Source: Tistrella mobilis (GTDB lineage Bacteria > Pseudomonadota > Alphaproteobacteria > Tistrellales > Tistrellaceae). From it: 64,000 nt of DNA. Below the pieces are notes generated by a model, which saw only the letters and a program-made list of their open reading frames with translations, was not told the origin of the DNA and searched no databases. Each line of letters opens with the position of its first letter. The stretch's first letter is position 1. A program made the position numbers and the translations under genes. Positions 7,381 through 16,918 of this stretch are shown here, one piece after another. The stretch lies in contig NZ_JBBIAB010000015.1 of NCBI RefSeq assembly GCF_039634785.1, positions 1 to 64,000 of the forward strand, given 5' to 3'.

Positions 7381-8595
7381 ATGGACACCACCGAGAACGG
7401 CATCGTTCACATCCGCCAGCCCGCCACCGCACCTCAGCCGCGACGGGTGATGGTCTTCGATACCACGCTGCGCGACGGCGAGCAGGCGCCGGGCAATGTG
7501 ATGTCGGCCGAGCAGAAGGTGGCGATGTTCCGCCGGCTGGATGCGCTGGGCCTCGATCTGGTCGAAGGCGGTTTTCCGGCCTCGTCGGGCGAGGATTTCG
7601 AAGCCTTCCGCGAAATGGCCCAGGGCCCGCGGGCAAGCAGGATCTGCGCCTTCTGCCGGGCCGCCGAACGCGACATCGACATCATCGCCGAAGGGCTGGG
7701 CTCCAGCGGCAATGCCCAGATCGAGATCCTGCTGGTCGGCTCGGAAATCCATCTGGAGCACAAGCGCCGGATCACCGCCGAAGAGGCGATCGAGGAAGCG
7801 GTGCGCAGCGTGCGCCATGCGGCCTCTCTAGGGTTCGACGACATCGCCGTCGCCCCGGAAGACGCCACCCGCGGCTCTCTGCCCTTCCTGGAGCGTCTGC
7901 TCAAGGCCTCGGTCGAGGCAGGCGCGCGCACGGTTGCGATCCCCGATACGGTCGGCTGCGCGCTGCCGCATGAATTCGCCGCCCTGGTGCGCGCCATGCG
8001 GTCCTGGGTCGGTCCGGACGTGATCCTCTCGGCCCATTGCCACGACGATATGGGGCTGGCGCTCGCCAACACCCTGGCGGCGCTGGAAGCCGGCGCCGAC
8101 AGCTTCCAGGCGACGCTCTGCGGCATCGGCGAGCGGGCCGGCAATACCGCGCTTGAAGAGGCGATCGCCCAGCTGCGGCTCAACGGCCCGCGCATGGGGC
8201 TTGCGACCGATGTGGCGCTGGAGCCGGTGATCGAGGCCGCCCATGCCCTGCGCGAGATGATCCGCCTGCCGCTGATGCCGACCAAGCCGCTGCTCGGCAC
8301 CGAGGCCCGCACCGTCACCGCCCCCACCCATCTCGGCTGGGCACGCACGGCCGAGGCCTGGCCGGTGCGGCCGGTGGCGGCGCTTCGCCCCAATGCGGTC
8401 ATGGTCGGCGGCACGCCGCGCAACGCCATCACCCGCCGCCTGGCCGAGGCCGGGGTGGTGATCGACATCGACAAGATCGATGCGGTCTGCGACCGGCTGG
8501 CGGCCGATCCGACCCCCGACCGCTTCAACGATCACGGCGCGCTGGTCGCCCTCTATCGCGAAGTGGCCGACAGCGGCACCGGCCTGCCCGGCTGA
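7381..8595 (+). CDS. 2-isopropylmalate synthase-like DRE-TIM acyltransferase (short form)
   Basis: A 404-residue enzyme of the IPMS/homocitrate synthase family, which condenses an acyl-CoA (usually acetyl-CoA) with a 2-oxo acid. Visible motifs are DTTLRDGEQAPG at the N-terminus, the metal-binding H-x-H in SAHCHDDMGLAL, and the CoA-site motif GIGERAGNTALEE. The C-terminal LeuA allosteric domain is absent; only a short linker-like tail follows the barrel. It could be a LeuA-like enzyme, a homocitrate or citramalate synthase, or a specialised paralog, and the sequence does not decide. It is the first gene after the divergent LysR gene and ends with a strong terminator. Confidence 0.8.
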   Translation: MDTTENGIVHIRQPATAPQPRRVMVFDTTLRDGEQAPGNVMSAEQKVAMFRRLDALGLDLVEGGFPASSGEDFEAFREMAQGPRASRICAFCRAAERDIDIIAEGLGSSGNAQIEILLVGSEIHLEHKRRITAEEAIEEAVRSVRHAASLGFDDIAVAPEDATRGSLPFLERLLKASVEAGARTVAIPDTVGCALPHEFAALVRAMRSWVGPDVILSAHCHDDMGLALANTLAALEAGADSFQATLCGIGERAGNTALEEAIAQLRLNGPRMGLATDVALEPVIEAAHALREMIRLPLMPTKPLLGTEARTVTAPTHLGWARTAEAWPVRPVAALRPNAVMVGGTPRNAITRRLAEAGVVIDIDKIDAVCDRLAADPTPDRFNDHGALVALYREVADSGTGLPG

Positions 8596-8826: not shown

Positions 8827-10125
8827 ATGACCCAGTACCGTCACCCCGAGACGGCCGTTCTGCATGCGGGCTATCGTGCGGACCCCACCACCGGCGCGGT
8901 GGCGGTGCCGATCTATCAGACGACCTCCTATCAGTTCGAAAGCACCGCGAAGGCCGCCAACCTGTTCGCGCTGTCGGAGCTGGGCAACATCTATACCCGG
9001 ATCATGAACCCGACCACCGACGTGCTGGAGCAGCGCCTGGCCGCCCTTGAAGGCGGTGTGGCGGCGCTCGCCGTCTCTTCGGGTCAGGCGGCCTCGGCGC
9101 TGGCGATCCAGAACCTCGCCCAGGCGGGCGACAATGTCGTCTCGTCGACCGATCTTTACGGCGGCACCTGGAACCTGTTTGCCAACACGCTGCGCCAGCA
9201 GGGCATCGAGGTCCGCTTCGTCGACCCGTCGGATCCTGAGAATTTCCGCCGCGCGACCGACGACCGGACCCGCGCCTATTACGGCGAGACCCTGCCGAAC
9301 CCCAAGCTCAGGGTGTTCCCGATCGCCGAGGTCGCAGAGATCGGCAAGTCCTTCGGCATCCCGCTGATCATCGACAACACCGCCGCCCCGATCATCGCCC
9401 GGCCGCTTGAACATGGCGCGGCCGTGGTGGTCTATTCCACCACCAAGTATATCGGCGGCCACGGCACCTCGATCGGCGGCATCATCATCGACGGCGGCAC
9501 CTTCGACTGGGAGGCCTTCCCCGAGCGTCAGCCGCTGCTGAACACCCCCGATGCCAGCTATCACGGCGCGGTCTGGACCCAGGCGGTGAAGCCGCTCGGC
9601 CCCATCGCCTATATCATCAAGGCCCGCGTCACCCTGCTGCGCGACCTGGGTTGCGCCGCCTCGCCCTTCAACGCCTTCCAGACCATTCAGGGCCTGGAGA
9701 CGCTGCCGCTGCGCATGCGCGAGCACAACAAGAACGCGACCCTGGTCGCCAAGTTCCTGTCGGAGCATCCGGCAGTGCAGACCGTCACCCATCCGAGCCT
9801 GGCCGAGGGTGAGGCGCGCGCCCGCGCCGACAAGTATCTGAAGGGCGGTTATGGCGCGCTGATCGGCTTCGAGATCAAGGGCGGCGCCGAGGCCGGCCGC
9901 GCCTTCATCGAGGCGCTGAAGCTGCTCTATCATGTCGCCAATATCGGCGATGCGCGCAGCCTGGCGATCCACCCCGCCACCACCACCCACAGCCAGCTGT
10001 CGGAAGAGGAGCAGAAGGCCTCGGGCGTGACCCCGGGCTATGTCCGCCTCTCGATCGGCATCGAGCATGTCGACGACATCATCGCCGATATCGAACAGGC
10101 GCTGGCGGCGGCGACGGCGGCCTGA
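8827..10125 (+). CDS. O-acetylhomoserine aminocarboxypropyltransferase (sulfhydrylase)-like
   Basis: A 432-residue Cys/Met-metabolism PLP enzyme. These enzymes replace the acetyl group of O-acetylhomoserine with sulfide or methanethiol, giving homocysteine or methionine. The PLP lysine lies in VYSTTKYIGGHG, with the N-terminal YTRIMNPTTDVLEQR and the SSGQAASALA phosphate-binding region. Length matches the MetY group (about 430) rather than MetB/MetC (about 390). The ATG has GGGAG about 11 nt upstream. No SAM riboswitch is visible before it, unlike the next gene. MetY is the likely identity, but MetZ-type specificity cannot be excluded. Confidence 0.9.
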   Translation: MTQYRHPETAVLHAGYRADPTTGAVAVPIYQTTSYQFESTAKAANLFALSELGNIYTRIMNPTTDVLEQRLAALEGGVAALAVSSGQAASALAIQNLAQAGDNVVSSTDLYGGTWNLFANTLRQQGIEVRFVDPSDPENFRRATDDRTRAYYGETLPNPKLRVFPIAEVAEIGKSFGIPLIIDNTAAPIIARPLEHGAAVVVYSTTKYIGGHGTSIGGIIIDGGTFDWEAFPERQPLLNTPDASYHGAVWTQAVKPLGPIAYIIKARVTLLRDLGCAASPFNAFQTIQGLETLPLRMREHNKNATLVAKFLSEHPAVQTVTHPSLAEGEARARADKYLKGGYGALIGFEIKGGAEAGRAFIEALKLLYHVANIGDARSLAIHPATTTHSQLSEEEQKASGVTPGYVRLSIGIEHVDDIIADIEQALAAATAA

Positions 10126-11389: not shown

Positions 11390-11986
11390 TCAAGCCATCT
11401 CGTTGCGGGCGATGCCTGCCGCCTCCCAATAGCCCTCTTCCCAGGTGATGAAGGCCTGGGTGTCGGTTTCATAGGGGTTGTCGGTCGCGGTCTGGCCGTC
11501 CAGGAAAGCGATGAAGCCTTCCTGCAGCTCGCGGACCACCGGCGCCTTGCGCATCGGCGTATCGCCGCCATCGGCCGGCGGCTCGATCGCGCCGTCCAGC
11601 CCGGCGGCCGGGTCGATCACCAGGCCGCGGCGGCGGGCCAGATGGGCGCGGAATTCGGGGTAGCGCATCAGAACGGTGTCGTCGAGCCCTTCCGGGTTCT
11701 CCTTCAGCGCCTCGCGCCCGCGATCGGTGATGCCGAGCAGGCCGTCGCCGACCCGCCGGATCAACCCGGAGACCAGCAGGCGCCGGAGATCGATGACCAC
11801 GCGGCGGTCGAATTCGGCCCGCGCCGCCGGATCGCACAGTTCTGCCGCCTTGGGCGCGATGCGCGCCAGATCCTGCAGCAGACGCTCCCCCACCCGGTGC
11901 TTGTCGGCCGGCTGCATGGCCAGCATCCGGAGCGCGGTGAGCATGATCGTCGAACTCGGCGGGCGGACCTCGGTTTGGAAGGGCAT
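11390..11986 (-). CDS. conserved hypothetical protein with Rmf-like C-terminal motif
   Basis: A 198-residue soluble protein. Residues about 10-100 look like a winged-helix-like region (RRLLVSGLIRRVGDGLLGITDRGREAL). The C-terminus, EGFIAFLDGQ followed by NPY, then a tryptophan and GYWEA, resembles the ribosome modulation factor fold found in short alphaproteobacterial proteins. The start MPFQTEV has GAGGA 8 nt upstream. No enzymatic motif is visible. A link to ribosome hibernation is speculation from the tail motif only. Confidence 0.65.
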   Translation of the reverse strand: MPFQTEVRPPSSTIMLTALRMLAMQPADKHRVGERLLQDLARIAPKAAELCDPAARAEFDRRVVIDLRRLLVSGLIRRVGDGLLGITDRGREALKENPEGLDDTVLMRYPEFRAHLARRRGLVIDPAAGLDGAIEPPADGGDTPMRKAPVVRELQEGFIAFLDGQTATDNPYETDTQAFITWEEGYWEAAGIARNEMA

Positions 11987-12161
11987 GGGTGATGTCCTCG
12001 ACTTTGGTGCTCGGACCGGCGCCGATACCGGCCCTCTTGGTTCAACATGTGGCGGCGACGCGCAATCGTCACAAGGTCGAAAAAAAGGGCTTTTCAAGCG
12101 CACGCCGACTGGCTATAAACCGCGCACCCACTGAGACACGGTGGGGCACGCGAGAGGCTAC

Positions 12162-12238
<77 letters not shown>

Positions 12239-12250
12239 CTCGCTCGGGTT

Positions 12251-12296
12251 TTGAAAACGCCCGGTTCATCTCTGGATGAGCCGGGCGTTTTCCTTT
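12251..12296 (+). terminator. terminator after tRNA-Asp
   Basis: AAAACGCCCGG and CCGGGCGTTTT form an inverted repeat around a loop with its own short pairing (TTCATC/GATGA). It ends in a T-rich stretch. Confidence 0.85.
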
Positions 12297-12411
12297 TGCG
12301 GTATTTGCATCGGCCCGGCACGGCCGCGCGGAAGACTGACGACCAGCGCCGGTTTGTCTGAGGCATGAATCTCTCTGCGCGCATTCGTTTTCAATTGAAC
12401 AACCCTTGATG

Positions 12412-12511: not shown

Positions 12512-13624
12512 ATGACCACGGTGCTGACCGATGAACTGATTCTGTGCGCCGCACCGCCCGGCGACCGGGATATCGATGCGGCCGGTTTCGCATCCATCTG
12601 GCTGGCGGCCGATGTCTATGCCCGCGGCCAGCGGTTGCTGGGCCGGTCGGCCCGGGTGCTGGTCGCGGCGGGTGATGCGCCGCGGCCGCGCAGCAGCCGG
12701 GACGGCAGCCCGCGGGACGGCATCGAAGAGGGCGGCCGCGCGGCCGCCACGCTGCGCCGCGCCGGGATCGGCATCGACGGCGTGCTCACCTTCCAGGGCG
12801 AAGGCCCGGGCGTGCTGCCGCTGCGCCGCCAGCAGGGCCGGCAACTGGGCGACAAGCCGATGCCGGTGCGCCTGACGGTCTTCGCCGGCCGTGATGCCCT
12901 CACCGCCCGCAGCCTGATCGAGGCGGTGGCCGAGATTCCGGATCTGGGGCCGATCACCGATACCCGGATCGTGGCGCCGCCGGCGCTGACCGATCTGTCC
13001 GGCCGCAGTTTCGACCCGTCGACCGGCCGGGCGATCTTCCTGAACGATCTGCTCGACCGGGTCCCGGCCGAGGCGCTGCGCTTCTATCTGGCGCTGATGT
13101 CGGAACCGCACGACGCCCGCGAGCTGTCGCTGGCCGATCTGGCCCGCACTCATAATCTGTTCCTGGTCCGCGACCTCGGCACCTCGCTCGGTGCCATCGC
13201 CAATCTGGACCCGGTGGCCGGCACCGCCCTGCCCCACGACCGGGCCGAGGACGACCTGATCACCGATTTCCGGGCCCGGTTGCATGCGGCACTCGATGGC
13301 CGCAGCTTCTCTCTGGCGGCGCTGGCCGGCGTGGTGCTGGGGCTGAACGGCCAGATGAAACAGGCCCGCCTTTACGGTACGCCCGAGCGGATCCCGCGGC
13401 TCGCCGGCCTGTTCCAGCTGTTTGCGCGCCCGGTGATGCCGGCCACCGCCGATGCGGTCGCAGGCTTCCTGGGGCTCGGCACCGGCTGGGGCGAGGCCTG
13501 GACCCGGGTCGGCGGCGAGATCCCGTCCTGCAGCGCCCGTTTCGTGCGTGGCGCGGCGCCCGGTTTCGACACGGTCGACGAGGCGGATCTGGTTGCGCTG
13601 GAGAGCGGATCGGCTGCCGCCTGA
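12512..13624 (+). CDS. methionyl-tRNA synthetase-like protein lacking HIGH and KMSKS
   Basis: A 370-residue protein. The N-terminus (LILCAAPPGDRDIDAAGF, then LAADVYARGQRLLG) aligns by eye with the Rossmann entry of MetRS, but the HIGH position reads DAAG. Further on, FLNDLLDRVPAEALRFYL and ELSLADLARTHN match the MetRS segment after KMSKS, while the KMSKS position reads SFDPS. The C-terminal helices (GLNGQMKQARLYG ... FARPVMPATADAVAGFLGL) resemble the MetRS anticodon-binding bundle. It is shorter than MetRS (about 510), with most of the connective-peptide insertion missing. Aminoacylation is unlikely. A tRNA-binding or amino-acid-sensing role is conjecture. AAGGGGAG lies 11 nt before the ATG. 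Its family is my recognition, not a search result. Confidence 0.65.
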   Translation: MTTVLTDELILCAAPPGDRDIDAAGFASIWLAADVYARGQRLLGRSARVLVAAGDAPRPRSSRDGSPRDGIEEGGRAAATLRRAGIGIDGVLTFQGEGPGVLPLRRQQGRQLGDKPMPVRLTVFAGRDALTARSLIEAVAEIPDLGPITDTRIVAPPALTDLSGRSFDPSTGRAIFLNDLLDRVPAEALRFYLALMSEPHDARELSLADLARTHNLFLVRDLGTSLGAIANLDPVAGTALPHDRAEDDLITDFRARLHAALDGRSFSLAALAGVVLGLNGQMKQARLYGTPERIPRLAGLFQLFARPVMPATADAVAGFLGLGTGWGEAWTRVGGEIPSCSARFVRGAAPGFDTVDEADLVALESGSAAA

Positions 13625-13670
13625 CCGGGTAGAGACAGTTGACCGGGCGGGCATATCGCCCTCAAACGAA

Positions 13671-13699
13671 AACGGCGGCCGCTTCGCAGCGCCGCCGTT
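13671..13699. terminator. bidirectional hairpin terminator
   Basis: AACGGCGGC and GCCGCCGTT form a 9-bp perfect stem between two convergent genes (MetRS-like on plus, CheZ-like on minus). Confidence 0.65.
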
Positions 13700-13721
13700 C
13701 GCATATCGATGGATCGATGCG

Positions 13722-14273
13722 TCAGTCGAACAGGCTGTCGATGTCGCTCTGCGACACCCGGCTGGCGTCGTCGACCGGGCCGTTGAGCAGCCGGGCATCG
13801 CCCTCGCGCTCCGCCGGCGGCGGCAGGGCCGCCACCTGATCATGGCCCACGATTTCCAGCAGCTCTTCCAGATGGGCATCCACCTGCTGCAGCACCTTGC
13901 GCACCTTGGCGATGCGCTGGCCGGTCAGGTCCTGGAAGCCGCAGGCTTCGTAGAGCGCGGTGATCGCCATGCCGGCATTGTCCAGCGCCGCACGGGCCTG
14001 GCTTTCCGGCGACAGCTCGGCGCTCACCGCATCCAGCGCGGTTTCGATCGCCTCGATCTGCGACAGGATCGCCTCGGTCGCAGCCTCGGTGCCTTCGACC
14101 ACCCCTTCAAGCGCCTGGGTGGCAGAGGCCAGCGGGTCTTCGCTCGCGGCCGGATGCCTCAGCACCGCCACCGCACGCCTGATCCGATCGATGGGCGCGG
14201 CCTGCGGCATCTCCATGCCGACATCGCCCCAGTCGATATCATCGTCTGCAGGCTCGGTCTCGTCCGTCGCCAT
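13722..14273 (-). CDS. CheZ-like protein phosphatase (chemotaxis)
   Basis: A 183-residue, mostly alpha-helical protein. It carries the CheZ signature region ACGFQDLTGQRIAKV near residue 120 and an acidic C-terminal tail SQSDIDSLFD, as used by CheZ to hold CheY. CheZ dephosphorylates CheY-P and ends a chemotaxis signal. No che or flagellar genes are adjacent. The start MATDETEP has AGGAG 10 nt upstream. Confidence 0.75.
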   Translation of the reverse strand: MATDETEPADDDIDWGDVGMEMPQAAPIDRIRRAVAVLRHPAASEDPLASATQALEGVVEGTEAATEAILSQIEAIETALDAVSAELSPESQARAALDNAGMAITALYEACGFQDLTGQRIAKVRKVLQQVDAHLEELLEIVGHDQVAALPPPAEREGDARLLNGPVDDASRVSQSDIDSLFD

Positions 14274-14540
14274 CCGTGCCCGTCTCCTGGCCGTCACGTC
14301 GTCCGGCCGGGGCCGGACCACTTCCCTCAGGCGCCGTCCAGGCACCCGCGGGCAAAGTTTAAGGCATTCACCCCGGGCGGGAAAGCATCCCCGACCGGCA
14401 TTTTCGCAGTGCGGCAGAGACATGCGCCGCGTCGCCGCTCAGAATGCAGGAGGGGCGGTAAAGAATGCGTCAACGCAACCACACGCGATGCAGATATCGC
14501 AGCCGGGCATCGGCCGGCGATGTTCCGCGGCGGGCCCCGA

Positions 14541-15297
14541 TCACTCGCCGAAGATGCGCAGGAAATTTCCGGCATAGAAGGCGGCGCGCTCTGCCTCTGT
14601 GCAACCGCCGAGCGTGGCATCGAAGGATGCGACAGGGTCCCGGCCGCCTTCGATATGCGGATAATCGGTGGAAAACGCATAAAGCCGGCTGTCAGATGCC
14701 CGGATCATCGCCCCCACATCCTCGTGGTGATAGGGCGTGAACAGACACTGGTCCAGAATCTGTTCCGAAGGTCGGCGGGCCGGTGCCCGGCCCGCGCCGC
14801 GAAAGATCTGCGCGGCCGCGGCATCCAGGCGACGCATCATGTCGGGCACCCAGCCGCCGCCGAATTCCGCGATCAGGCAGTGCAGGCCCGGATAGCGCTG
14901 CAGCACGCCGTCGAAGATCAACCGGCTCAGAAAGATCTCGACGCGTTCGGTGGCGAAGACGACCCGATCCGGCCGCGGCGCATCATCGCCGTCCAGCATC
15001 TCGAACGGCACGATCTCCCCCGTGGCGGCCATCTGCCGTGCCACGTCGGGCGGCGGCATGATATGGCAGGCCAGCACCAGCCCCGCCTCGGTCATGCGGG
15101 CCCAGACCCACCCCCGACAGCCGGGGGCACCGGCGCAGAAGGTGGGGCCTGCCAGAAGATCACCGCCACGGGCCGTCAGCGCCGCGACGGTCTCGGCGGA
15201 ATGATGGCCCCGGCCCAGGCACCACCCCTCTGGTCCAGATGGCGCCCCAGGATCGGCGGATCCTCCTCGCGCCGGGTGATCATCTGGTGCAGGTCGA
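14541..15297 (-). pseudogene. amidohydrolase (ACMSD-like) remnant
   Basis: The frame ending at 14541 encodes the C-terminal half of an amidohydrolase-2 family protein: WARMTEAGLVLACH, LQRYPGLHCLIAEFGGGW and FSTDYPHIEGG (the metal-site Asp region). The N-terminal metal motif is not in the same frame. A short family-like segment, GVVDLHQMITRREEDP, is found in another frame near 15250-15290 and stops around 15180. The roughly 150 middle residues are missing. The simplest reading is a frameshifted, internally deleted gene. Upstream the frame runs on into an HPr-kinase-like segment. Confidence 0.6.
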
Positions 15298-15363
15298 CGA
15301 CCCCATCGCCGCCCGCATCCCCAACAGATTTCCAGCGCCAGACGCGGCACCGGCGGCAGCTGC

Positions 15364-15896
15364 CGGGCGGCATCCCGGATCGCCCGGCGCCTGGCCGGCG
15401 CGACCAGCACATCGGCCAGCCGGTGCGACAGGATATCGAAGCAGCCGGCGGGCGACAGGCCGGGGATGGCGGGATCAGGCCGCAACACAGCTGCCTTCAG
15501 CAAGCCTGGCATCGACTGCAGCCGCGGCGGCGGCAAGTGCGTCCAGGCGATAGGGCAGGCGCAACCGACAAGGCAATGGCCATTGCGTTCGGCGATCCGT
15601 ACCAGATCATCGGCAATCGGCTGCCAGCCTGTGCGGGTCAGCGCCGTTGACAGGCTGGACTTGCCGGCCCCCTTCTGCCCCATGATCAGGATCGCCGCAT
15701 CCTGCTTCACCAGGGCCACCGCATGAAACGACACCAGCCCCAGGCGCGACAGCACAATCCGCATCACGGGTTGAGTGAACAGGCTGTATAAATCGTACCA
15801 GACGAGCCCGGCCACACTGTCGGACAGCACCAGCCGTCCATCGCCGGAGATCCGGAAGCGGCAGATCGGTATGCCCTCGGGATTGCCATAACTCGC
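15364..15896 (-). pseudogene. HPr kinase-like domain fragment (PqqD-associated type)
   Basis: The frame encodes RFRISGDGRLVLSD, then LVWYDLYSLFTQPVMRI, then a P-loop in LIMGQKGAGKSSLSTAL and IADDLVRIAE. This is the order seen in HPr-kinase-like proteins found beside PqqD-like proteins in RiPP/lasso-type loci. A TAA at 15897-15899 cuts off the N-terminal domain, and the only usable start is a GTG at 15830 inside the domain. The frame then continues without a stop into the amidohydrolase remnant, so a native C-terminus is not seen. A fusion protein is possible but less likely than decay. Confidence 0.55.
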
Positions 15897-16090
15897 TTAT
15901 TCCTGCCTGACGGCTGCGGCAGTGCAGATGGCGTTTGGCTGGTCGCCTCATCGGCGACGGGCTGATCGATTCAGCTGCGTCAACGACCCGACCGCCCAGG
16001 CACGGCCCGTCCATTGCGGCATCCGTTCAGGAGGTGTATGCCGAGCCGTCCGTGGGCCCACCAGAATCACCCTGCGTCAGCGCCTCGACC

Positions 16091-16408
16091 GTGCCATGCT
16101 CTTTCAGCGCAGAGGGTTCAAACACAGCCCGGCTTTTCTCCGGGCTCACGAAATCAGAACCTGCATGCGACATTCAGATACTCTCTCTAAAAGGCCATGC
16201 TGCTCTGCTTGCGTCGGAAATATATTTCGGCCTGACCGGCGCCGTCAGCCGGCTGACGGCGCCGCTGCGGGACGGGGCATCCCAGGACGAGCTGGTGGCC
16301 CATGTGACCGATTATTACGACGTCACCGAGGCAGATGCCCGCGCCGATCTTGCACGCATCCTGGCCGAGCTTCAGGCCGCCGGTCTTGTCGTGGCGGCCG
16401 AGGCCTGA
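16091..16408 (+). CDS. PqqD-like peptide chaperone protein, start uncertain
   Basis: The reliable part is residues about 30-105: LKGHAALLASEIYFGL, then SRLTAPLRDGASQDELVAHV, then ADARADLARILAELQAAGLV. That is the PqqD fold, which binds precursor peptides in PQQ, lasso and radical-SAM RiPP pathways. The frame has no ATG. I used GTG at 16091; GTG at 16034 is another choice. A strong AGGAGG-ATG pair at 16030-16040 is in a different frame, so a frameshift may have separated the real start from the body. The gene faces away from the HPr-kinase-like fragment. No precursor, cyclase or protease gene is adjacent. Confidence 0.55.
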   Translation: MPCSFSAEGSNTARLFSGLTKSEPACDIQILSLKGHAALLASEIYFGLTGAVSRLTAPLRDGASQDELVAHVTDYYDVTEADARADLARILAELQAAGLVVAAEA

Positions 16409-16436
16409 TCGTTGCCGGATTTGGGCGTGGCCCCGA

Positions 16437-16697
16437 TCACTCGTCCAGAATCTCCTCGCGCTGTTCCTCATACTCGTCGGGCGTGATCGCGCCCTTGTCA
16501 TAGGCGCCCTTCATGTCGGTCAGCGCCTCGCCCTTGGTGCGGCCGTCGACCGCGACCGAGTCGTCGCCCCCACCGCAGGCGGCAAGCCCGGTGGCCAGAC
16601 CCATGGCGACCACGGCCGCCGCCAGCATGCGCAGGGGGCGGCGGGCGGCGGCGTTATCGGCGGCGGTGACCTCGGTGGTTTCGGCTTCGCGATACAT
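16437..16697 (-). CDS. small lipoprotein with SHOCT-like C-terminal domain
   Basis: An 86-residue protein with a hydrophobic segment (about residues 22-40) ending in a lipobox (GLAAC), so it is probably lipid-anchored. The C-terminus, LTDMKGAYDKGAITPDEYEE, is a SHOCT motif, a short helical oligomerisation module. The start MYREAET has GGAG 8 nt upstream. Function unknown. Confidence 0.7.
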   Translation of the reverse strand: MYREAETTEVTAADNAAARRPLRMLAAAVVAMGLATGLAACGGGDDSVAVDGRTKGEALTDMKGAYDKGAITPDEYEEQREEILDE

Positions 16698-16918
16698 GAT
16701 CGGGCTCCATTCCGGTTGGCTCATGAACCGGAACTGGGCCATCCGGCCCCCGCCCTCAAGCGCTGCACGGTCTTGTCACCGCCTTGGCGCCGTGCCGTCA
16801 CGGGGCGGCACCCTCTGCCCCCGAATGGACATGGAACCCGAAGATCGAGGGGGAGGAACGACGAAGCCGCCGCTGCGAATGACCCTGATCGGGCCGGCAG
16901 CGACGGCTTCGGAGAAGA

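Follow-up and report, generated by a model that had tools for sequence, protein, structure and literature searches.

Probable remnant of a RiPP cluster in Tistrella mobilis and its relatives with a prenyltransferase-terpene cyclase fusion enzyme

The 64,000-nucleotide stretch of Tistrella mobilis DNA analyzed here (the window) carries a PqqD-like and an HPr-kinase (HprK)-like gene piece, which raises the question whether both belong together and which pathway they served. A sequence-only reading had described them as divergent leftovers of a lasso-type, peptide-modifying cluster, with no cyclase and no clear precursor. The PqqD-like piece, a potential leader recognition element (RRE), was confirmed on the plus strand (16196..16408, domain match 16223-16390), where positions 12-67 of the 67 positions of PF05402 are matched with 29.8 bits over the Pfam cut-off of 23.4. 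It retains its stop codon, its N-terminus (around 20 initial codons) is missing, and it scores lowest of the seven PqqD domains that exceed the cut-off in the 6.16-Mb genome of the window. The portion of the plus-strand ORF 15935-16408 that precedes position 16196 (around 87 codons) showed no PqqD homology. The HprK-like piece is real as well, but its domain stretch lies at 15546-15731 and not within 15830-16408, where it had been placed; it matches positions 8-68 of the 171 positions of PF07475 with 32.7 bits, slightly short of the cut-off of 33.3, and obtained 34.1 bits when PF07475 was searched against the whole genome. As it is encoded on the minus strand, the divergent arrangement of the two pieces holds.

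When 58 genomes (including the window's own) were searched with the 429-aa translation of the minus-strand frame that covers the HprK-like piece, an intact syntenic locus was found in a genome of the same genus (G001; locus L061, G001:C4:1570000-1589900). This locus encodes a PqqD protein (11804-12076, minus), a 47-aa precursor as a short ORF (12244-12387, plus), an HprK-like kinase (12538-13503), a 691-aa fusion enzyme with two domains (13466-15541), a 67-aa Nif11-like protein (15556-15759) and an amidohydrolase (15756-16901), for which no relative was found in any other related locus searched. It is located between the same flanking genes as in the window, a SHOCT-domain lipoprotein-like protein (window 16437..16742, minus; PF09851 over cut-off; L061 11470-11775) and CheZ (window 13722..14423, minus; PF04344 over cut-off; L061 17019-17720), and the flanks are 93-95% identical. 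With an intact version in the same place, the earlier reading was right in joining the two pieces as what is left of one peptide-modifying cluster.

Comparison with this ortholog revealed at least five deletions in the window, and every gene but the precursor gene has lost pieces. The DNA that is still recognizable amounts to 78% for PqqD, 71% for the precursor (with an intact ORF), 45% for HprK, 15% for the fusion enzyme, 59% for the amidohydrolase and 0% for the Nif11-like gene. The PqqD remnant corresponds to amino acids 26-90 of the intact 90-aa protein (90.8% protein identity; DNA block 16196-16450, L061 12017-11762). From the kinase gene, a middle part with the P-loop is left (15569..15903, minus; 84% DNA identity to L061 12722-13057), of which the N-terminus is not recognizable, and it is joined to the 3' end (15475..15570, minus) after a deletion of around 350 bp. 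This 3' end and the 5' part of the fusion-enzyme gene form one block (15206-15570) with 87% identity to L061 13408-13780. The fusion-enzyme remnant itself (15206..15512, minus) comprises 315 of 2076 bp, and a net loss of around 8 bp has shifted its frame, so that the protein match of 90% covers amino acids 1-67 and continues in another frame. It is followed by an amidohydrolase fragment (15145..15213, minus; 94% DNA identity to L061 15917-15985), upstream of which the Nif11-like gene and all other fusion-enzyme sequence were lost in the largest deletion (around 2.1 kb), by a second short fragment (15107..15142, minus; 86% over 37 bp to L061 16165-16201) and by the C-terminal half of the amidohydrolase_2 gene (14541..15108, minus; PF04909 matched above its cut-off with 41.4 bits; the protein is 94% identical to that of G001).

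These deletions created the 429-codon open frame at 14541..15830 on the minus strand, which had been read as HprK-like. The P-loop stretch is indeed HprK-like, but the frame as a whole is a mosaic: tblastn against L061 assigned amino acids 1-87 to HprK, 88-173 to the fusion enzyme, 180-209 to the frame-shifted fusion enzyme, and 202-230 and 242-429 to the amidohydrolase. This chimeric frame and the plus-strand frame antisense to the precursor gene are easily mistaken for genes during annotation.

The sequence-only reading had missed the terpene chemistry, which is encoded by the fusion enzyme. In Pfam the 691-aa protein gave only a weak match to squalene-hopene cyclase. Its C-terminal half matches the merosterolic acid cyclase MstE (4.2e-84 by profile, 9.8e-18 by fold); a single-sequence search with the G001 enzyme alone reached 2.2e-25, and a T. 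mobilis paralog matches MstE as well. Asp109 of MstE, which is altered in structure 6sbe (D109N), is the second aspartate of the MstE motif DADTT and aligns with the second aspartate of DADST, a column that is invariant in alignments of six and of seven fusion proteins (two loci common to both). Judged by sequence and fold, the C-terminal half is an MstE-like class II terpene cyclase domain; in the window this domain, including the aspartate in the catalytic position, has been deleted. For the N-terminal half, no relative was obtained in a sequence search of the PDB (best match 3l47, E 0.16). The structure of this domain was predicted from the T. mobilis paralog (pLDDT 86.4, pTM 0.87), to which the G001 protein is 34% identical overall. 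The 50 listed of 166 Foldseek matches were all prenyltransferases, with moderate TM-scores of 0.42-0.58 (relative to model length for most of them), and the model aligned with 6-dimethylallyltryptophan synthase (6-DMATS) over 277 residues (VIA Z 17.0, rmsd 3.9). The predicted fold thus identifies the N-terminal half as an ABBA prenyltransferase domain. The central enzyme of the cluster is therefore a fusion of an ABBA prenyltransferase with an MstE-like cyclase, as in NctPC, and not a lasso cyclase.

Relatives of the enzyme were present in six of 385 genomes of the class (E <= 1e-6, window remnant included). The genome_contigs collection contained 24 loci with relatives, of which seven (L102-L108) match the HMMs of both domains; a query with the single 691-aa protein obtained no match in this collection, and a query of viral_contigs with the six-protein alignment was likewise without a match. 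After counting loci present in two collections once (L077=L102, L076=L105), 11 distinct fusion loci remained: L061, L076/L105, L077/L102, L078, L079, L080, L103, L104, L106, L107 and L108. They are distributed over Alphaproteobacteria (the class of Tistrella; among them Rhodospirillales, L105, and Sphingomonas or Sphingomonadaceae, L106-L108), an acidobacterium (Acidobacteriaceae, L103) and the cyanobacterium Iningainema tapete (L104). In T. mobilis KA081020-065 (NC_017956.1) a complete, tight operon was found (L102:5736-12161) in the order precursor, PqqD, AsnS, HprK, fusion enzyme and P450, whose genes overlap or abut; upstream of it there are a Nif11-like gene and an ORF resembling P450.

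Across the 11 loci, HprK-like genes were present in ten, PqqD in nine, P450 in seven (weak in L106) and asparagine-synthase (AsnS)-like genes in six, as counted with HMMs whose training sequences came in part from the same loci. The exception is the cyanobacterial locus, where neither HprK nor PqqD was found in the stretch covered. In the five loci that were independent of HMM building (L103, L104, L106, L107 and L108), HprK, AsnS and P450 were each found in four (P450 of L106 being weak, 4e-19) and PqqD in three, with L103 beginning and L104 stopping at a contig end. As a control, 17 cyclase loci without a match to the prenyltransferase HMM (L109-L125) were analyzed, several of them on stretches cut by contig ends; HprK and PqqD were found in none, and AsnS (L110) and P450 (L114) in one each. 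A PqqD/HprK pair recurs elsewhere with an asparagine-synthase-like protein and with lasso-leader precursors, and most of this enzyme set is shared by bacteria that are only distantly related.

The domains also occur in other combinations. A second cluster in G001 (L063:4847-11574) encodes AsnS, PqqD, HprK, P450 and a protein that passes the Pfam cut-off for Nif11, together with a prenyltransferase-like domain fused to a methyltransferase and a precursor candidate (9548-9697); as a prenyltransferase-methyltransferase cluster it was left out of the 11 fusion loci. In another genome (G365, L081:2285-9599) the prenyltransferase and the MstE-like cyclase are separate genes beside subunits of an NHLP-type ABC exporter. 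Among 398 sampled genomes of the phylum, the prenyltransferase domain gave one match (E <= 1e-10), in G691 (L141:3309-9111), where it stands alone, with a Nif11 protein, a LanM-like lanthipeptide synthetase and a JmjC protein as its neighbors, and no PqqD or HprK was matched at this locus. The LanM and Nif11 neighbors support a RiPP role of the domain, but the locus is a miss for its association with PqqD and HprK.

All four intact HprK-like proteins tested from fusion clusters (L061, L079, L102, L106) score under the Pfam cut-off, and such proteins are also under every HprK cut-off of NCBIfam. The PqqD protein of L061 exceeds the cut-off of PF05402, and its best NCBIfam model is lasso_PqqD_Strm (45.6 bits, under the cut-off of 70). 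For the three AsnS-like proteins tested, the best NCBIfam match was a lasso cyclase model, under its cut-off. Nif11-like genes were detected in ten of the 11 fusion loci with a model that was built from five of these ten, that is weak for L080 (8.5e-5) and L078 (1.8e-4), and for which an unrelated locus (L030) reaches 0.018; of the four Nif11-like proteins tested with Pfam, only that of L063 was over the Nif11 cut-off.

Contrary to the claim that a clear precursor is missing, an intact 48-codon precursor ORF was found on the minus strand of the window (16027-16173), antisense to the plus-strand ORF 15935-16408 and orthologous to L061 12244-12387. The encoded peptide MSHAGSDFVSPEKSRAVFEPSALKEHGTVEALTQGDSGGPTDGSAYTS consists of a lasso-like leader, FEPSALKEHGTVEALTQ, and a putative core, GDSGGPTDGSAYTS. 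It shares 78% identity with the G001 ortholog (E 1.8e-15) and diverges strongly from it in the last 13-14 residues. The leader carries threonine at position -2 and, if it ends at TQ, the core starts with Gly1 and has an aspartate at position 8, a spacing that we take to be lasso-like. With the lasso leader model NF033521 (lasso_leader_L3), the window and G001 precursors obtained 15.0 and 12.7 bits, both under the cut-off of 19; the precursor that belongs to the T. mobilis paralog exceeds it at 24.6 bits. Altogether ten precursors were found, in eight of the 11 fusion loci, in L063 (a weak match, E 0.092) and in the window. The leader motif Y-x-x-P-x-[LIVM] is present in seven of them, and the window, L061 and L107 have F-x-P-x-x-L instead. 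All ten end in Tyr-(x)-Ser with serine as the C-terminal residue, an end that was partly selected for, as the C-terminus was part of the HMM by which the precursors of L107, L080, L076 and L063 were retrieved. Tryptophan is absent from nine, including those of the window and G001, and is present only in that of L063. At two loci further candidates were noted: in G095 (L078:9396-9630) the precursor motif and the Tyr-Ser end are in two different frames, due to either a sequence error or decay, and in Iningainema tapete (L104:7888-11190) a 76-aa ORF upstream of the fusion enzyme that ends in QYTP is perhaps its precursor.

These data were used to weigh the lasso-type origin that had been proposed for the locus. 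The window could be the remnant of an ordinary lasso-peptide cluster with RRE, B2 leader peptidase, AsnS-like cyclase and an additional kinase, from which cyclase and peptidase were lost. The leader with its threonine at -2 and the Gly1...Asp8 spacing of the core are in line with this, as are the AsnS-like proteins of related clusters, which match the lasso cyclase model best, and the presence of B2 in three of the 11 fusion clusters. One B2 (transglutaminase-like) gene over the Pfam cut-off is present elsewhere in the window's genome (G000:C29:12085-12435) and could act in trans, so that the intact cluster may yet yield a lasso product. PF13471 (B2) exceeds its cut-off once in each of the three Tistrella genomes (G000, G162 and G001), outside these clusters, and in the genome-wide searches no PqqD or HprK match was found on the contig that carries the lone B2 gene (G000:C29). 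An asparagine-synthase-like gene was found neither in the ORFs and Pfam matches of the window locus nor in L061, in agreement with the earlier statement that a cyclase is missing; B2 was likewise found neither in the window locus nor in L061, L063 or L102. As the intact syntenic ortholog contains neither a macrolactam synthetase nor B2, the window copy is therefore no ordinary lasso cluster, and the enzyme that is central in the ortholog, a prenyltransferase-terpene cyclase, has left a recognizable 5' remnant in the window. Of the proposed lasso-type origin, the leftovers of a peptide-modifying locus stand, and an ordinary lasso cluster as their source is unlikely.

The intact ORF raises the possibility that the precursor is still in use: it would be expressed, and maturation in trans would be provided by other PqqD/HprK/AsnS sets of this genome (L021, L022). 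Its leader appears constrained, since codons 11-34 differ from the G001 ortholog by four synonymous and no nonsynonymous changes (codons 1-10: one synonymous, three nonsynonymous), and besides further HprK-like genes the window's genome encodes six more PqqD domains that pass the cut-off. However, the search of the 385 class genomes (E <= 1e-6) revealed no relative of the fusion enzyme in this genome besides the 5' remnant, the precursor had no match in G162, a genome of the same species, and an ORF of 48 codons may survive for some time by chance. Continued use is thus quite improbable. One of the other sets (L022:8264-12594, G000:C6) is a cluster of HprK, sulfotransferase, PqqD and AsnS, in which a possible lasso-like precursor with a terminal serine (8264-8557, minus) was spotted by eye (HMM E 19).

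The further fate of the locus is apparent in G162 (T. mobilis KA081020-065), where the sequences of window positions 14767 and 16313 are one base apart; therefore only the 3' ends of the two outermost genes, PqqD and amidohydrolase, remain there. By sequence comparison, G001, the window and G162 represent three stages of the loss of one cluster: intact, partial and nearly gone. Conversely, the cluster of G001 could have been gained recently and the window could be the older state, as the identity of the blocks from HprK and the fusion enzyme (84-87%) is below that of the flanks. The corresponding values are 91% for the precursor and 95% for the C-terminal stretch of the amidohydrolase. Nevertheless, the window contains internal HprK, fusion-enzyme and amidohydrolase blocks in the right order and orientation, and the 3' ends of both outermost genes are retained in G162; an insertion into an older short state would leave neither, which makes a recent gain very improbable. 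That the pieces are chance neighbors, either an HPr-rel-A pair, to which weak TIGR04352 and TIGR04353 matches point, or unrelated fragments, was rejected as hardly credible, because the scores of the intact G001 proteins are far too low (36 bits with a cut-off of 200, 22.6 bits with one of 35) and the syntenic ortholog is one cluster.

Taken together, these results make it likely that the window contains the deleted remnant of a RiPP cluster with a lasso-like leader that is dead, and that the intact pathway would place a cyclized isoprenoid on the C-terminal tyrosine and a phosphate on the terminal serine of its peptide. With prenyltransferase, cyclase, kinase and RRE all broken, the window pathway is regarded as dead and the precursor ORF as a relic. 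The intact cluster of G001 probably makes a peptide decorated with a cyclized terpene. In the proposed mechanism, PqqD would bind the leader via the YxxP motif present in most precursors (the F-x-P variant in the window and G001) and present the precursor, and the HprK-like kinase may phosphorylate the C-terminal serine, by analogy to PadeK. The prenyltransferase domain would prenylate the conserved tyrosine near the C-terminus with a long chain, probably C20. The MstE-like domain would then cyclize the chain via protonation from the conserved DxD aspartate, and, where present, the AsnS-like protein may close a macrolactam and the P450 may oxidize the product. The tyrosine as acceptor, the length of the chain, the succession of the steps and the product are all deduced; tyrosine was proposed as acceptor because it is conserved near the C-terminus, and NctPC itself acts on tryptophan. 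Extending this to all loci, we tentatively consider, at slightly less than even confidence, a rare and widely scattered RiPP family that turns a lasso-type peptide into a terpenoid hybrid, in which the fused enzyme prenylates the C-terminal tyrosine and cyclizes the chain to a polycyclic terpene, the terminal serine is phosphorylated, a lasso-type synthetase closes the ring, the P450 oxidizes and the stand-alone Nif11-like protein is a second recognition part; Tistrella would be losing this family stepwise, with the peptide gene outliving the enzymes. If true, cyclized-terpene chemistry, probably on tyrosine, is joined to lasso and HprK machinery in Alphaproteobacteria and an acidobacterium, which is directly testable in the complete operon of the sequenced strain T. 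mobilis KA081020-065, and the window adds a three-stage view of the death of such a cluster.

Peptides with cyclized terpenes are a recent discovery (Hubrich et al., Chem 10:3224, 2024, cited in PMC13290415). The closest known enzyme is NctPC, in which an ABBA prenyltransferase and an MstE-like class II cyclase are joined in one protein of a RiPP pathway and which is described to geranylgeranylate tryptophan and to cyclize the chain; ChrPC is reported to act likewise with another prenyltransferase fold (PMC13290415). As far as described there and in a reference in PMC12715784, our only sources on NctPC, it shares the fusion with the enzymes analyzed here but modifies tryptophan, whereas nine of the ten precursors lack this residue and all end in Tyr-(x)-Ser; moreover, most clusters here contain PqqD and an HprK-like kinase, and around half contain AsnS-like and P450 genes. 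A lanthipeptide prenyltransferase is described to require its Nif11-like leader (PMC12715784). The cyclase domain resembles MstE (PDB 6sbb-6sbg) in fold, sequence and the aspartate in the catalytic position, but MstE is a monodomain protein that was crystallized with prenylated dihydroxybenzoates rather than with a peptide.

Regarding the remaining machinery, PadeK of the paeninodin type is described to phosphorylate the C-terminal serine of the precursor ahead of maturation (PMC9266682). As outlined in that source, the paeninodin type shares the lasso-type leader, the PqqD-like RRE, the HprK-like kinase and the C-terminal serine with the loci analyzed here, six of 11 of which also have AsnS; the difference is that the G001 cluster and the window have neither AsnS nor B2 and that a prenyltransferase-cyclase is central. 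LPP RiPPs likewise combine an RRE and an HprK-like kinase with a YxxP leader, and only around one third are stated to be linked to canonical lasso enzymes; they differ in using a signal-peptidase-like protease, an NTP-transferase and an exporter and in being described from Bacillota, and 'prenyl' does not occur in the main text of that paper (PMC13381572). Prenylated lasso peptides are known, but with the modification on tryptophan, and the words 'terpene', 'isoprenoid' and 'geranyl' are absent from the main text of the review that covers them (PMC13352647). Among the matches listed from titles and abstract openings of open-licence PMC articles, a joining of the fusion enzyme with PqqD/HprK or lasso genes was not recognized, the nearest being PMC13290415. 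Hence the kind of enzyme has already been published, its setting in clusters that combine PqqD, HprK and AsnS genes with lasso-type leaders and Tyr-Ser ends was not recognized in the literature searched, and the window copy is a dead member of these clusters.
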